Of a DNA stretch of 64,000 nucleotides, positions 32,340-38,998 are shown one piece after another (the first letter of the stretch is position 1; each line of letters starts with the position of its first letter). A program made the position numbers and the translations under genes. The stretch is from Candidatus Phycosocius bacilliformis. Lineage in GTDB: Bacteria; Pseudomonadota; Alphaproteobacteria; Caulobacterales; Aquidulcibacteraceae. The DNA lies in NCBI RefSeq assembly GCF_003112735.1, contig NZ_BFBR01000003.1:124001-188000 (forward strand), read 5' to 3'. A model generated the notes under the pieces. That model worked only from the letters and a program-made list of their open reading frames with translations, was not told the DNA's origin and did not search any database.

Positions 32340-32560
32340 CAAGGTTCCTTGCGCGACATAGGCCCAAAATGGCCAAAGGCTATCGCCTTACCATGAGCTG
32401 TCATCGCCATTTGAGGGGTATTGGCTGGAAGAGGTGGGATTAGCATGTCCCGGCTTCCTTACCAGCGACTTTATGGTTTCTTTATTACCAGATCCCGATT
32501 TCACATGGAAGCTTTACGCGGTCCCATGGTCTGGCTCTCTGGCCGTTCCGGAGACCTTCA

Positions 32561-34492
32561 ATGACAAACCAACGCCCATCTCCTGCCGATGGATCAAGAG
32601 CGCCCAAACCTCAACATACAGCCATTCTGACCATTGGTGCCATTGGTGTGGTCTTTGGCGATATTGGTACCAGTCCACTATATGCCTTTCGCGAAGCTTT
32701 GGCCCAAGCTGCCGGTGGCGGCATCACGCAGGCGGAAATCTTTGGCGTGCTAAGTTTGGCTCTTTGGGCATTGATCTTGGTGGTCACGGTCAAATATGTC
32801 AGTTTTCTTATGCGCGCCGATAATCATGGCGAAGGGGGCGTTTTGTCGCTCATGGCTTTGGCGCGTCGAGCAACAGGCGGCAGATGGGCCTTTGTCACTT
32901 TGCTCGGAGCCATGGGCGCAGCCTTATTCTATGGTGATGCCATTCTCACTCCGGCGCTGTCGGTTCTTTCCGCTGTGGAGGGCTTAAAATCAGTCCCAGC
33001 TGTCGCGCCGCTATTGAGCCATAACATGATTATAGCCATGGCCATTGCCTTGCTTGTCGTCCTGTTCTTGATCCAAAGCTCAGGAACGGCAGCTGTTGCG
33101 GGCTGGTTCGGGCCAATCTGCGTAGTTTGGTTTCTAGCCATAGGGACGGTCGGACTTTTCAACATGCTGGCAGCGCCACAAATCCTGTCAGCATTAAATC
33201 CGATGTACGGAATCGAGTTTCTGCTGACCCACGGCAAAGTAGGACTCCTTGTCATGGGCGCGGTTTTTCTGACCGTAACGGGGGCGGAAGCGCTGACAGC
33301 CGATATGGGTCATTTTGGCCGTTTCCCGATCCAACTTGGCTGGTATCTGCTCGTGTTCCCTTCACTAACCCTGAACTACTTCGGGCAAGGTGCATTCGCG
33401 CTATTGCAACTTGAAGCCGCCGCCGCCCAAGGACTTAACCTACAGCCAGCCGACTGGTTCTTTCTGATGACCCCGGAATGGTTCAGACTGACGATGGTGG
33501 GCCTGGCCACAGCGGCCACCATCATCGCAAGTCAGGCCGTCATCACCGGTGCCTTTTCCTTGACCCAGCAAGCTGTCCTTTTGGGCCTGCTGCCGCGCAT
33601 GACGCTGCGCCAAACCAGTGCCAGCCATTCGGGTCAAATCTACCTGCCTGCGATCAACTGGTTATTGGCCCTAGGTGTTTTGATCCTGATCCTAAGCTTC
33701 CAAACATCGTCCAAGATGGCTGCTGCGTATGGTATTGCCGTGACCGGCACCATGGTTGTGACCACAATGCTGGCCTTTTTGGTCGTATGGAAATTGTGGC
33801 AGTGGTCATTGGTCAAGGCTGTGGCAATCATTCTGCCGCTCTTGGCTCTGGACATGTTTTTCTTCGGGGCGAACATCCTGCGCGTGGCCGAAGGTGGCTG
33901 GGTACCGCTTGTCGTGGGCCTGTTGATAGCCGGCCTGATCGGGATTTGGGCACGCGGGCGGGCATTTCTTGCCGCTCAAGCGAGCCGTGAGACGGTTAAG
34001 ACAAGTGATTTGGTGACTAATCTCGCCAAGACTCCCATCCCCACTGCTCGCGGTACCGCAGTCTTTCTCACAGCGGATCCTGAGCTTGCCCCACCAGCAC
34101 TTCTACACAACCTAAAGCACAATCAGGTTTTGCATCAAAACAACATCCTATTGACAGTGCGCACGTCAACTGAACCCCATGTGGCATCGAACAAGCGCCT
34201 GATTGTTGAATGCTTAGATGAGCGCTTTTCTCGCGCCACCTTGCATTATGGCTACATGGAAAGCCCAGATGTACCAACTGATTTGCATCGAGATGGGCAG
34301 GTCCCGATCCCTGCACACGGCATTTCATTCTTTGTCAGTCGCAACAGTCTGGCACCAAGCGCTGAGGTAGGCCTACCCTTGTGGCAAGCAGTTATTTATA
34401 GTTTCCTGCACCGCAATGCTGCAGATCCAACCGCCTTCTTCCAAATTCCTCCTGACCGCGTTGTGGAACTGGGCTCTCGGGTGCGGGTTTGA
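32561..34492 (+). CDS. kup: Low-affinity potassium transporter Kup
   Basis: Kup imports K+ with protons in the inner membrane. The 643-residue length is usual. The N-terminal signature Gly-Val-Val-Phe-Gly-Asp-Ile-Gly-Thr-Ser-Pro-Leu-Tyr-Ala-Phe (28-42) and Asp-Asn-His-Gly-Glu-Gly-Gly (87-93) are exact, about twelve membrane segments follow, and a cytoplasmic domain ends the chain. It is first in a kup-kdpD-kdpE unit: the next gene starts inside its stop codon (TGATG). Confidence 0.97.
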   Translation: MTNQRPSPADGSRAPKPQHTAILTIGAIGVVFGDIGTSPLYAFREALAQAAGGGITQAEIFGVLSLALWALILVVTVKYVSFLMRADNHGEGGVLSLMALARRATGGRWAFVTLLGAMGAALFYGDAILTPALSVLSAVEGLKSVPAVAPLLSHNMIIAMAIALLVVLFLIQSSGTAAVAGWFGPICVVWFLAIGTVGLFNMLAAPQILSALNPMYGIEFLLTHGKVGLLVMGAVFLTVTGAEALTADMGHFGRFPIQLGWYLLVFPSLTLNYFGQGAFALLQLEAAAAQGLNLQPADWFFLMTPEWFRLTMVGLATAATIIASQAVITGAFSLTQQAVLLGLLPRMTLRQTSASHSGQIYLPAINWLLALGVLILILSFQTSSKMAAAYGIAVTGTMVVTTMLAFLVVWKLWQWSLVKAVAIILPLLALDMFFFGANILRVAEGGWVPLVVGLLIAGLIGIWARGRAFLAAQASRETVKTSDLVTNLAKTPIPTARGTAVFLTADPELAPPALLHNLKHNQVLHQNNILLTVRTSTEPHVASNKRLIVECLDERFSRATLHYGYMESPDVPTDLHRDGQVPIPAHGISFFVSRNSLAPSAEVGLPLWQAVIYSFLHRNAADPTAFFQIPPDRVVELGSRVRV

Positions 34493-35931
34493 TGATGCCT
34501 GATCTTCGAGCCAAAAGTGCTGACCGAACAATTTCGCTTGGCTTTGCTCTACTTATCACTTTCGGTCTCGGTTGGGCTGGAATCATATGGCCTAACTTGG
34601 GCACTGCCAATCTCGCGCTTCTTCTCCTGATCCCAGTTGTCTTGGCGGCCTCTGGTGGCGGAAGAGTTTTGGGTCTTGGATTAGCTATCCTGGCTGGAGC
34701 GGTCTTTAACTTTGTTGCGCTTGAGCCACGGCTCACCTTCGCGATCGCTAAGTCAGGGGATCTGGTGACTTTGGGGGTATATGTGCTGGTTGCTGTTGTA
34801 GCCGCATCTGTCTCCGCTCGCCTTGCAGCCGCGGGCGACCGCGCAAGGGAGGATGCAACCGACAGCGCATTGTTTTCGGCAATGACCCATCAGCTTCTCT
34901 CAGCTAGTACACGAGAGCTGATTATTGAAGTTGCCGTCCGCGCGGTTACAAATTGCACGTCTTTCGGTTGTGCCATTGCAGAAACCAATCACGATCTCGC
35001 CCCACCCGGCAGTCAAGATGAGGCCGCCGCCCGCTGGGCCATTGTTCATCGAGACGTCACCGGACGCGGATTACCTCTGTTTTCAGATGCCTCAGCTATT
35101 TATGTCGCCGCTCGCACAGGCCGTCGGGCTCTTCTGGCTCGGATTGACGGTGCTGGTTTGCCCGATGCGCGCCTTGGCTTAGTTAGAAAGATAATCGATG
35201 AAGCGGCAGACGCGCTCGATCGGATAGAACTTGCGGCGCGGATGGAGGCTGACCAACGCAAAGCAGATGCACAAACCATGCGCCGAGCAATTTTTGCTTC
35301 CATTGGCCACGATTTGCGCACCCCAATGACGGCGCTTCGGGCTGGCCTTGAAGGTTTGAGCGGCCATGATCCAACCCAAACCGAACTCTTGCGCGCCGAT
35401 GCTCTCCGTCTTGAGCGCACACTGCACAATTTGCTTGAGCTCGCTCGGCTTGAGGTCAACGATCGATTACCGATCGTCTGCAGCATTGACTTAACCGACA
35501 CAATTGATGCAGCGATTGATGCATTGCCAGTCACGACAAAGGATCGAGTCCATATCTGGATTGGAGACGAGACCCCACTCATTCAAAGCGACCCCATTAT
35601 GCTCCACCATATTGTCGTCAATCTTTTGGAAAATGCGGCGAAATACAGCCCGGCATCAAGCAATATAGAGGTGCGAGCTGAATCGGCGGATGGGGGTGCG
35701 AGGCTTGTCATTCTGGATGAGGGCCCAGGAATTGATGACGATGTGGCCGATTTATTTGGTCTGTTCAGACGTGGGACACATGGGGACCGGGCACCAGGGT
35801 TAGGGGTTGGACTTTCGGTGGTGGATGCATTCGCCCGTGCCTTGGGGCACATTGTAACGGTTAGAAACCGACCAACAGGAACAGGCGCAGAATTTGTTGT
35901 GGAGTTTTACGGCGAGCCGCCAAAGTCATGA
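34492..35931 (+). CDS. kdpD: KdpD-like sensor histidine kinase lacking the N-terminal domain
   Basis: KdpD senses K+ or osmotic state and phosphorylates KdpE. This 479-residue version has the KdpD membrane region (DUF4118, four segments at about 14-110), a GAF-like linker and the kinase core: His273 in Ser-Ile-Gly-His-Asp-Leu-Arg-Thr-Pro, the N box Leu-Leu-Glu-Asn-Ala-Ala-Lys-Tyr, and Gly-rich loops Asp-Glu-Gly-Pro-Gly and Gly-Leu-Gly-Val-Gly. The cytoplasmic KdpD/Usp N-terminal half of E. coli KdpD (about 895 residues in total) is missing. The ATG overlaps the kup stop, so its likely role is K+ control of kup. The gene looks less GC-rich than its neighbours. Confidence 0.9.
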   Translation: MMPDLRAKSADRTISLGFALLITFGLGWAGIIWPNLGTANLALLLLIPVVLAASGGGRVLGLGLAILAGAVFNFVALEPRLTFAIAKSGDLVTLGVYVLVAVVAASVSARLAAAGDRAREDATDSALFSAMTHQLLSASTRELIIEVAVRAVTNCTSFGCAIAETNHDLAPPGSQDEAAARWAIVHRDVTGRGLPLFSDASAIYVAARTGRRALLARIDGAGLPDARLGLVRKIIDEAADALDRIELAARMEADQRKADAQTMRRAIFASIGHDLRTPMTALRAGLEGLSGHDPTQTELLRADALRLERTLHNLLELARLEVNDRLPIVCSIDLTDTIDAAIDALPVTTKDRVHIWIGDETPLIQSDPIMLHHIVVNLLENAAKYSPASSNIEVRAESADGGARLVILDEGPGIDDDVADLFGLFRRGTHGDRAPGLGVGLSVVDAFARALGHIVTVRNRPTGTGAEFVVEFYGEPPKS

Positions 35932-36629
35932 GCGCCGCCATCCTCATTGTCGATGACGAGGCCCACATCTTGAGGTTATTGCGGGCAGTAGTTGAGCGAG
36001 GTGGACATCACGTTGTTACAGCCACAAATGGGCGTGAAGCGCTTCATCTTGCCCGCACGTCCTCCCCGCCTGTGGCATTGCTTGATCTTGGTTTGCCAGA
36101 CAGGGATGGAATTGAGCTCGTAAAGCAATTTACAGATTTGGGAATAAGTGTCATCGTGGTGTCTGCACGAGACGACATCAGCGAGAAGATTGCCGCCCTT
36201 GACCTCGGTGCGGCTGATTATGTTGTTAAACCATTTGATACCGATGAGCTCTTGGCTAGACTGCGCGCGACATTACGAAGCCGCACACCGCAAAGACGTC
36301 GCGTTGATGTGCTTCAGCTGGGTGATGTGAGGCTTGATCTTGGAGCGCGTCGCATCCAGCGCAATCAGTCAGAAGTCCACCTCGCTCCGAAAGAATATGC
36401 GCTTCTCGATTTGCTAGCCCGGCATGCAGGAAGGGTGTTGACTCACGCGCAATTGCTGCGTGAGGTTTGGGGGCCGGCACACGAAAAGGACATCGAATAC
36501 TTGCGGGTCGCCGTCCGCGCGATACGACAGAAAATCGAGCCAGTTCCTTCCCGTCCGACCTTCATAAGAAATGAACCCGGAATTGGCTATCGCCTCATGG
36601 TACCAGAAGCGCCGGCGGAAGGCCTCTAA
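35928..36629 (+). CDS. kdpE: KdpE-like OmpR/PhoB-family response regulator
   Basis: The 233-residue protein has a receiver domain with the acidic pair Asp9-Asp10, phospho-acceptor Asp53, Ser79 and Lys101, then a winged-helix DNA-binding domain (about 130-230) with Pro-Lys-Glu-Tyr-Ala-Leu-Leu and Asp-Ile-Glu-Tyr-Leu-Arg-Val. It overlaps the kinase gene by 4 nt, so the pair is a cognate two-component system. Target promoters are not visible here; the kup operon itself is the natural candidate because no kdpFABC pump genes are present. Confidence 0.95.
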   Translation: MSAAILIVDDEAHILRLLRAVVERGGHHVVTATNGREALHLARTSSPPVALLDLGLPDRDGIELVKQFTDLGISVIVVSARDDISEKIAALDLGAADYVVKPFDTDELLARLRATLRSRTPQRRRVDVLQLGDVRLDLGARRIQRNQSEVHLAPKEYALLDLLARHAGRVLTHAQLLREVWGPAHEKDIEYLRVAVRAIRQKIEPVPSRPTFIRNEPGIGYRLMVPEAPAEGL

Positions 36630-37375: not shown

Positions 37376-38200
37376 TCAATTCACAGTGGGGTTCGCGCCG
37401 CCATCGACACGCAGGTTTGCGCCGTTGATGAAGTCGGACTGTGGGCTTGCAAGGAAAGCCACCGCCCGGGCAATGTCGTCGGGACGACCAAGACGCCGTG
37501 TTGGTGTGTTCAGCACATGGGTGGCCGCATTATGCTCGATCACGTCCCAATCCTCACCCCAACCAAAACTTTGTGACCAGCCGCGGATCATGGGTTCGAC
37601 TGCGGGGGTACGAACCAGACCGGGTGAGACCGCATTGACCGTAATGCCCGTGCCGGCCAGCAGCCGCGAGAGACTGACCATCTGGTTCAAATTGGCCGCT
37701 TTTGTCAGGGAATATTGTGGGAAGGCTTCGCGTGGCATTGCAGCAGCAACCGAGCCGAGCATGACGACCCTCCCCCAGCCGCGGTCCTTCATTTGCGGCA
37801 CAATCCGGCGAACCATTCTGAACACCGAATTGACATTGGCCTCATAAAGCGCGCTGGCCTGAGATGCGCCCAAATCTGTCAACCAATCGCCGGGGGCGGG
37901 CGCTTTAGGCGCAATCAGCAGGCCGGCATTATTGACCAGAATATCAATCCCGCCGAACGCCGCCAGTGCCGCACCAGCCACCTGATCCGCTCCAGCCTCG
38001 GTCGACACATCCCCCACGGCACCGGCCGCCCTAAACCCGTCGCGGGTCAGCTCTGCCACCCCGTCAGCAACCGCCTCGGTGCGCCGACCATGCACAATCA
38101 CAGCCGCGCCTTCCCGCGCCAGAAGCCGCACGATCGCCGCCCCGATCCCACTGGTGGACCCGGTCACGAGGGCATTTTTGCCTGCCAGTTGCAAATCCAT
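37376..38200 (-). CDS. Short-chain dehydrogenase/reductase
   Basis: A classical SDR of 274 residues: NAD(P)-binding Thr13-Gly-Ser-Thr-Ser-Gly-Ile-Gly20, Asn90-Asn-Ala-Gly93, catalytic Ser150, Tyr163 and Lys167. The substrate is unknown. It is divergent from the TetR gene at 38289, with a perfect inverted repeat in the 88-bp gap, so induction by its own substrate or a related electrophile is plausible. Confidence 0.93.
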   Translation of the reverse strand: MDLQLAGKNALVTGSTSGIGAAIVRLLAREGAAVIVHGRRTEAVADGVAELTRDGFRAAGAVGDVSTEAGADQVAGAALAAFGGIDILVNNAGLLIAPKAPAPGDWLTDLGASQASALYEANVNSVFRMVRRIVPQMKDRGWGRVVMLGSVAAAMPREAFPQYSLTKAANLNQMVSLSRLLAGTGITVNAVSPGLVRTPAVEPMIRGWSQSFGWGEDWDVIEHNAATHVLNTPTRRLGRPDDIARAVAFLASPQSDFINGANLRVDGGANPTVN

Positions 38201-38907: not shown

Positions 38908-38998
38908 TGGCGGAGACGGAGGGATTCGAACCCTCGGTGCCCTTTTGGAGCACGCTCATTTAGCAAACGAGTGCCTTCAGCCTCTCGGCCACGTCTCC
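38908..38998 (-). tRNA. tRNA-Ser (anticodon GCT)
   Basis: The minus strand folds as a class II tRNA: acceptor arms GGAGACG and CGTCTCC, the D arm GCCGAGAGGC, an anticodon arm CTCGT-TTGCTAA-ATGAG giving anticodon GCT, a long variable arm as required for serine, and the T arm with GGTTCGAATCC. The discriminator is G and the CCA end is encoded (38908-38910). It reads AGC and AGU codons. Confidence 0.97.

Follow-up and report, generated by a model that had tools for sequence, protein, structure and literature searches.

The closest described relative of the locus treated here is the kdpFABC-kdpDE system of Escherichia coli, in which the genes for the sensor kinase KdpD and the response regulator KdpE overlap and a direct-repeat site stands before the operon of the KdpFABC ATPase. 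E. coli KdpE binds TTTATA-N5-TTTACA, and its residues R193 and R200 are required for DNA binding (PMC3264566). The N-terminal PF02702 domain of KdpD, described as KdpD-specific, acts in E. coli as an atypical serine kinase: it phosphorylates Ser162 of KdpB and so shuts the Kdp pump off (PMC11018627). Silberberg et al. (2024; PMC11018627) surveyed species annotated as having a Kdp pump and describe split and partial KdpDs of variable domain content, among them histidine-kinase parts without the KdpD domain that are paired with a separate KdpD/Usp protein, the serine-kinase domain being preserved in almost all versions. Carriers of the Kup/HAK/KT family usually stand alone.

We analysed a stretch of 64,000 nucleotides from the freshwater bacterium Candidatus Phycosocius bacilliformis (contig NZ_BFBR01000003.1, positions 124,001 to 188,000 of the forward strand; hereafter the window), in which a kup gene is followed by a short kdpD and by kdpE (Table 1). 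The locus resembles the E. coli system in the homologous membrane and kinase core of KdpD, in KdpE, in the overlap of kdpD with kdpE, and in a direct-repeat site before the transporter gene, but its transporter is Kup rather than the KdpFABC ATPase, and its KdpD is without a counterpart of E. coli residues 1-395, which hold the serine-kinase and Usp domains. The window Kup is a full-length carrier with both Pfam domains of its family; unlike the usual stand-alone carriers, it heads a kdpDE operon. In contrast to the species described by Silberberg et al., this genome has neither KdpA nor the serine-kinase domain, and pump-less KdpDs fall outside that survey, the largest of KdpD domains known to us, because it was limited to species with an annotated pump (PMC11018627). 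Judging from sequence, kup-kdpD-kdpE is probably a Kup operon inducible by K+ starvation under the control of a stripped KdpDE pair.

The kup-kdpD-kdpE locus and its short KdpD

The TGA stop codon of kup (34490-34492) and the ATG of kdpD at 34492 have one base in common, with TTG at 34489 and ATG at 34495 as alternative kdpD starts, and the 3′ end of kdpD (35931) and the start of kdpE (35928) overlap by four bases, ATGA. The coordinates and frames behind the stop/start overlaps described in the initial annotation are thus right. From these overlaps and the conservation of the trio in relatives (see below), we infer a single, co-transcribed operon of the three genes. Kup scored 644 and 515 bits against the NCBIfam Kup models, missing both cut-offs (883 and 540), and the term low-affinity, used for it at first, is borrowed by analogy from E. 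coli Kup. KdpE scored 198 bits against its NCBIfam model (cut-off 325, missed) and keeps the arginines aligned with R193 and R200 of the E. coli protein.

Table 1. Positions of the three genes and of the two upstream direct repeats in the window
Feature	Position	Strand	Description
KdpE-type direct repeat 1, TTTATG-N5-TTTATT	32470..32486	+	Candidate site; starts 91 bp ahead of the kup ATG; conserved in three congeneric orthologues
KdpE-type direct repeat 2, CACATG-N5-TTTACG	32502..32518	+	Candidate site; 59 bp ahead of the kup ATG, 32 bp past the start of repeat 1; top matrix match
kup	32561..34492	+	Potassium uptake permease, 643 amino acids; Pfam K_trans (544 bits) and K_trans_C; second Kup of the genome
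Short kdpD	34492..35931	+	479 amino acids from ATG 34492; four-helix DUF4118, GAF-position segment, HisKA, HATPase_c (Pfam, solved-structure profiles and model)
kdpE	35928..36629	+	OmpR/PhoB-type response regulator; receiver and winged helix (Pfam); top match among solved chains E. coli KdpE (4kny)

The window KdpD begins just ahead of its first membrane helix. Pfam did not find PF02702 in the protein, nor was the domain found genome-wide, and its score under the NCBIfam KdpD equivalog model was 138 bits (cut-off 1123, missed); the protein is therefore called KdpD-derived here rather than a full KdpD. Profile searches matched it to the solved membrane domain (2ksf) and kinase (6lgq) of E. coli KdpD, and in the tree it falls in a starred set of 30 rows together with full-length KdpDs of kdpFABC operons. 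The columns of the phospho-acceptor H273 and of the N, G1 and G2 motifs are invariant in the family alignment. An AlphaFold model built from 24 sequences (mean predicted local distance difference test score, pLDDT, 80; predicted template modelling score, pTM, 0.56) predicts, besides the long membrane helices and the kinase core, an alpha/beta segment that spans approximately residues 160-219, in the position of the E. coli GAF domain. Since Pfam recognizes no GAF domain at these residues and the best Foldseek matches of the model are kinase cores, the label GAF is used by position only. The absence of the cytoplasmic N-terminal domain, noticed in the initial annotation, stands; the accompanying remark that this domain binds regulators in E. 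coli gives way to its more specific role as a serine kinase of KdpB (PMC11018627).

The genome (3.33 Mb in 21 contigs, 100% complete) was searched by family, and the control searches gave matches in known genomes, E. coli or others. It contained no KdpA (KdpB and KdpC were not searched for separately) and no TrkH/KtrB-type protein, and two Kup proteins, that of the operon and one elsewhere. The statement that no kdpFABC lies beside the operon thus extends, for KdpA, to the whole genome. Among eight congeners, three (G006, G007 and G008) carry an orthologous trio, with identities to the window of 82-83% for Kup, 66-69% for KdpD and 74-75% for KdpE, and each has two Kup proteins. The trio was not found in the other five (G001-G005), which have one Kup each, that of G001 being a fragment at a contig. 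The window's own genome also contains another, short KdpDE pair (G000:C8, locus L036:6499-8671, minus strand), with no adjoining transporter and a flagellin gene downstream; TTTATAAATTCTTTATG, similar to repeat 1 and the best match of that locus, lies at L036:6201 between kdpE and the flagellin gene, and pairs related to the L036 KdpDE occur in G001 and G006.

Recurrence of kup-linked pairs and the N-terminal domain

Among 120 classified loci, the N-terminal domain was absent from all 43 kup-linked KdpDE pairs and present in all 34 kdpABC-linked pairs; these ratios are not rates, as many short and full-length loci were fetched for their length or for KdpA. No two of 119 fetched loci were near-identical (1500 bases, 97%). 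Nine of the 120 had no recognizable KdpD-KdpE pair and were left out of the counts, including L166 (a metagenome-assembled genome (MAG) of Sphingopyxis sp.), in which the kup-linked kdpD is apparently broken into two pieces. Less selected counts came from the proximity of PF02702 to KdpA in 398 genomes of the window's order, Caulobacterales, and from a scan of named genomes. In the former, KdpA exceeded the family cut-off in 71 genomes and strong PF02702 matches (E below 1e-70, weaker matches being dropped before counting) occurred in 70; 69 of the 71 strong matches had KdpA at a distance of 10 kb or less, and the other two were situated within 1.5 kb of a contig end. Two split cases were seen: in L042 (G034:C54) the N-terminal and C-terminal parts of KdpD occupy separate open frames behind kdpC, and at G290:C2:264130-264757 the PF02702 match is split over two frames and the core match contains a TAG. 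Either case may reflect sequencing error, a real split or decay.

The named-genome scan used an alignment of five window-type KdpDs as query, the window KdpD alone having given no match, and returned 30 loci. kup adjoins KdpD in 26 of them, 25 as co-directional kup-kdpD-kdpE and one divergently (Phenylobacterium), and none of the 26 has N-terminal similarity; of the other four, two have a full-length KdpD beside kdpABC and two belong to neither class. The co-directional trios occur in Aquidulcibacter, Novosphingobium, Sphingomonas, Sphingopyxis, Sphingobium, Stakelama, Sandarakinorhabdus and unnamed MAGs. Further kup-linked pairs in the order are divergent (L090, L091, L093, L094, L107, L108 and L168), convergent (L040), or co-directional with a very different KdpD (L043 and L045), and a second Kup was present elsewhere in the cases searched in the order (G029, G034, G050, G140, G257, G276, G188, G334 and G355). 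A class-wide survey of 385 genomes gave matches at 1e-50 in 79; among the 20 loci fetched, one was newly kup-linked (L219), and in this sample no other such case was found outside the two orders, Sphingomonadales and Caulobacterales. The linkage of a K+ sensor pair to kup instead of to the Kdp pump, proposed from the window, is therefore real and recurs in relatives, in varied arrangements and with different KdpDE lineages. The operon is common in sphingomonad genomes and its component families are all known; no description of a kup-kdpDE operon was found in an open-access library, searched by titles and abstract starts.

In one genus of the window's family, kup is divergent from kdpE and a KdpD of 350-364 amino acids (mini-KdpD) in six of the seven loci fetched (L239-L244), while the seventh, L245, is not kup-linked. 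In the two mini-KdpDs tested with Pfam, HisKA starts nine residues past the end of DUF4118, so that these proteins lack the GAF-position segment. Together the six make up one clade adjoining L090 and L093, which indicates that this segment was lost once. The Kup of L127 also adjoins a mini-KdpDE.

Unrooted trees were used to count origins. The KdpD tree had 85 rows, after removal of the long-branch or incomplete L050, L101, L105 and L166; the duplicates L139, L140 and L142 and short automatic loci were likewise dropped before counting. On it, the kup-linked rows need four changes of state, all forced by starred branches: the window and sphingomonad lineage adjoins sphingomonad kdpFABC-linked KdpDs, L043 and L045 adjoin the KdpD of a kdpFABC locus in their own genus, the divergent Caulobacterales lineage adjoins L046, L078, L080 and L081, and L040 adjoins ten full-length KdpDs of its own family. 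Six changes are needed on the KdpE tree, four of them forced, and four on the Kup tree, with L127 counted as linked. A single clade of linked proteins was rejected by the approximately unbiased (AU) test for KdpD (p 9e-33, on a 36-row subset), KdpE (p 8e-45) and Kup (p 5e-47). As full-length KdpD is present in 6 of 14 control genomes of distant phyla, and since the same domain is less likely to have been gained several times, the changes are read as losses of the N-terminal domain rather than gains.

Candidate KdpE sites before kup

In both repeats before kup (Table 1) the half-sites are 11 bases apart, and both are conserved in the window and the three congeners despite differing surroundings. 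At the sequence level, kup thus has what is expected before a target operon, a direct repeat of two half-sites with an 11-bp period, and both repeats are candidate KdpE sites. The 15-base core of repeat 1 has no other match in the 64 kb with one mismatch allowed, by a pattern that was written after the site had been seen. A matrix for repeat 1 was built from the four kup promoters of the window and the three congeners, with no E. coli data, and ranked the published KdpE site of E. coli kdpFABC first among approximately 22,000 positions (11 kb). With both strands considered, 14 of 25 kdpA loci, that of E. coli included, had their whole-locus best match in the 500 bp upstream of kdpA, and L040 had it before kup. 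When the E. coli site was added to the matrix, 17 of 22 additional kup loci had their best match in the 330 bp upstream of kup. By chance, from the share of positions examined, a best match before the gene would be expected in approximately 1.5 to 2% of loci.

For repeat 2, a matrix built on the intergenic regions of seven divergent kup/kdpDE loci of another lineage placed the window site first in the 64 kb (19.9, against 13.5 for the next position), and gave at most 13.1 in housekeeping-kup loci versus at least 27 in L120 and L127, both of which have kup beside kdpDE. The repeat-2 pattern occurred at 17 places in 16 of 318 genomes, 12 of them before a kdpDE-linked kup and five inside long open frames; the reversed pattern had no match in the 318 genomes.

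Function, rival explanations and origin of the operon

In the starvation-inducible operon that we consider probable, the stripped KdpD would sense low K+ through its membrane and GAF-position regions and phosphorylate KdpE; phosphorylated KdpE would bind the two upstream repeats and raise transcription of kup, kdpD and kdpE, its own regulators included, and the induced Kup would replace the KdpFABC pump. The serine-kinase and Usp domains would have been lost from KdpD for want of a KdpB partner as substrate, and because the N-terminal domain has no known task without the pump, its loss would be expected wherever KdpDE serves kup. From the sequences we infer that K+ is the signal, that KdpE binds and activates, that this Kup takes up K+, and why the domain was lost. 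A broader reading has, in our judgement, an even chance of being correct. By it, the serine-kinase domain is kept only beside the pump and has been lost at least four times independently, each time that an additional Kup recruited KdpDE; kup-linked KdpDs would be natural K+ sensors reduced to membrane domain, GAF-position segment and kinase, the mini-KdpDs of 350-364 amino acids would place the sensor in or near the four helices, and KdpE-driven Kup would be, in Sphingomonadales and Caulobacterales, the most frequent output of KdpDE other than the pump.

Several observations weigh against K+-starvation control of kup. E. coli KdpD without its N-terminal domain responds to K+ limitation with no shut-off at high K+ (PMC2714519), and the stripped KdpD would accordingly need another shut-off route, or be leaky and perhaps a poor switch. 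Sinorhizobium fredii KdpE binds the kdpFABC promoter and not the kup promoter (PMC9239096), which argues that control of Kup by KdpE is not general. That kup gene is not known to adjoin kdpDE. The window KdpE has N at the position of E. coli T215. The repeat-1 matrix did not rank its best match before kdpA in 11 of the 25 loci, and in the remaining five of the 22 kup loci the site before kup ranked 2, 2, 3, 4 and 8; in the third lineage (L043 and L045), neither repeat was recognized before kup by the matrices. Finally, in 34 of the 120 classified loci a short KdpDE pair has neither kup nor kdpABC as neighbour, and loss of the N-terminal domain thus does not require kup; a scan of ten proteins encoded next to the pairs at eight of these loci showed no common transporter.

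The pair might answer a signal other than K+, such as osmotic stress, a partner of the nitrogen-related phosphotransferase system (PTS-Ntr) or pH, with kup as its output for that reason. The GAF-position segment is the part of KdpD that varies most between lineages and is missing from the six mini-KdpDs, and the GAF domain of the S. fredii protein binds PtsN proteins (PMC9239096); however, a K+ carrier is the partner gene in 43 of 77 short pairs classified, and the window sequences match KdpD and KdpE best among solved structures, so that we regard such a signal as unlikely. To a single ancient kup-kdpDE operon, rewired once and carrying old repeats, in which kdpDE was replaced repeatedly from kdpFABC operons, we assign a similarly low probability. 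It would account for the sharing of repeat 2 (CACATGG-N3-4-TTTAYG) between the window lineage and the divergent Caulobacterales lineage, which are placed apart on the KdpDE and Kup trees, but the Kup tree alone requires its four changes and rejects one clade of linked Kup, and the arrangement of the genes varies among co-directional, divergent and convergent. Moreover, among five newly fetched kdpFABC loci that are sisters of the divergent lineage, three have a relative of repeat 2 ahead of kdpA (rank 1 in L172 and L174, rank 2 in L175; not found in L170 and L173, nor in a sixth locus, L046), and repeat 2 may thus be no more than that lineage's own KdpE site.

A juxtaposition without regulatory meaning, in which kdpDE act elsewhere and merely ride with kup, could invoke the second short KdpDE pair of the genome, which has no transporter. 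Linkage by chance is nevertheless disfavoured by the KdpE-type repeats directly before kup and by the recurrence seen on the trees of all three proteins, which involves four or more KdpDE lineages and three arrangements; we find it very improbable.

The operon was probably transferred, and may have entered the window's genus from a sphingomonad-type source; transfer is supported by the trees and by the surroundings of the operon in the congeners. The operon Kup groups with 27 linked copies, mostly of Sphingomonadales, adjoining a Sphingomonas Kup, and the KdpD groups with sphingomonad copies, while the other Kup of the genome groups with those of its own genus and family. The nearest trio outside the genus is in two MAGs labelled Sphingomonadales (L141 and L143), and in G006-G008 the surroundings of the trio contain none of the 15 further window genes that were looked for. 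The transfer suspected at first from base composition gains its support from these trees and surroundings, composition by itself being a weak indication: the operon is indeed less GC-rich than its neighbourhood (GC content 0.547, whereas segments of equal size average 0.573 over the 64 kb, 1.2% of these overlapping segments being as low), and the GC content at third codon positions is lower than that of kdpD in one, of kdpE in one and of kup in four of 43 other open reading frames. No insertion boundary can be drawn, because the gene at 37376-38200 beside the operon (short-chain-dehydrogenase-like, named by eye) has no match at 1e-60 in the eight congeners. A tRNA-Ser gene lies at 38908-38998, 2.3 kb from the operon; its 3′ end is not repeated in the window, and a tRNA-bounded island is unsupported. 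Elsewhere, kup-kdpD-kdpE is carried by Lpl, a conjugative-typed plasmid of Novosphingobium sp. PP1Y (L055), and a locus of another Novosphingobium, N. mathurense (L153), has a KdpD and a Kup closely related to those of the L055 copy.

The K+ sensing site of KdpD and the role of its N-terminal domain have been argued through engineered truncations of the E. coli protein; here, truncations have evolved repeatedly, the sensor staying beside a different transporter. If the proposed reading is true, the pattern of loss would give independent support to the model of the domain as a serine kinase of KdpB, and the mini-KdpDs would offer a small natural sensor for testing. Many annotated pairs of a DUF4118 sensor kinase and a response regulator beside kup in Sphingomonadales would likewise gain a function, the control of an inducible Kup.

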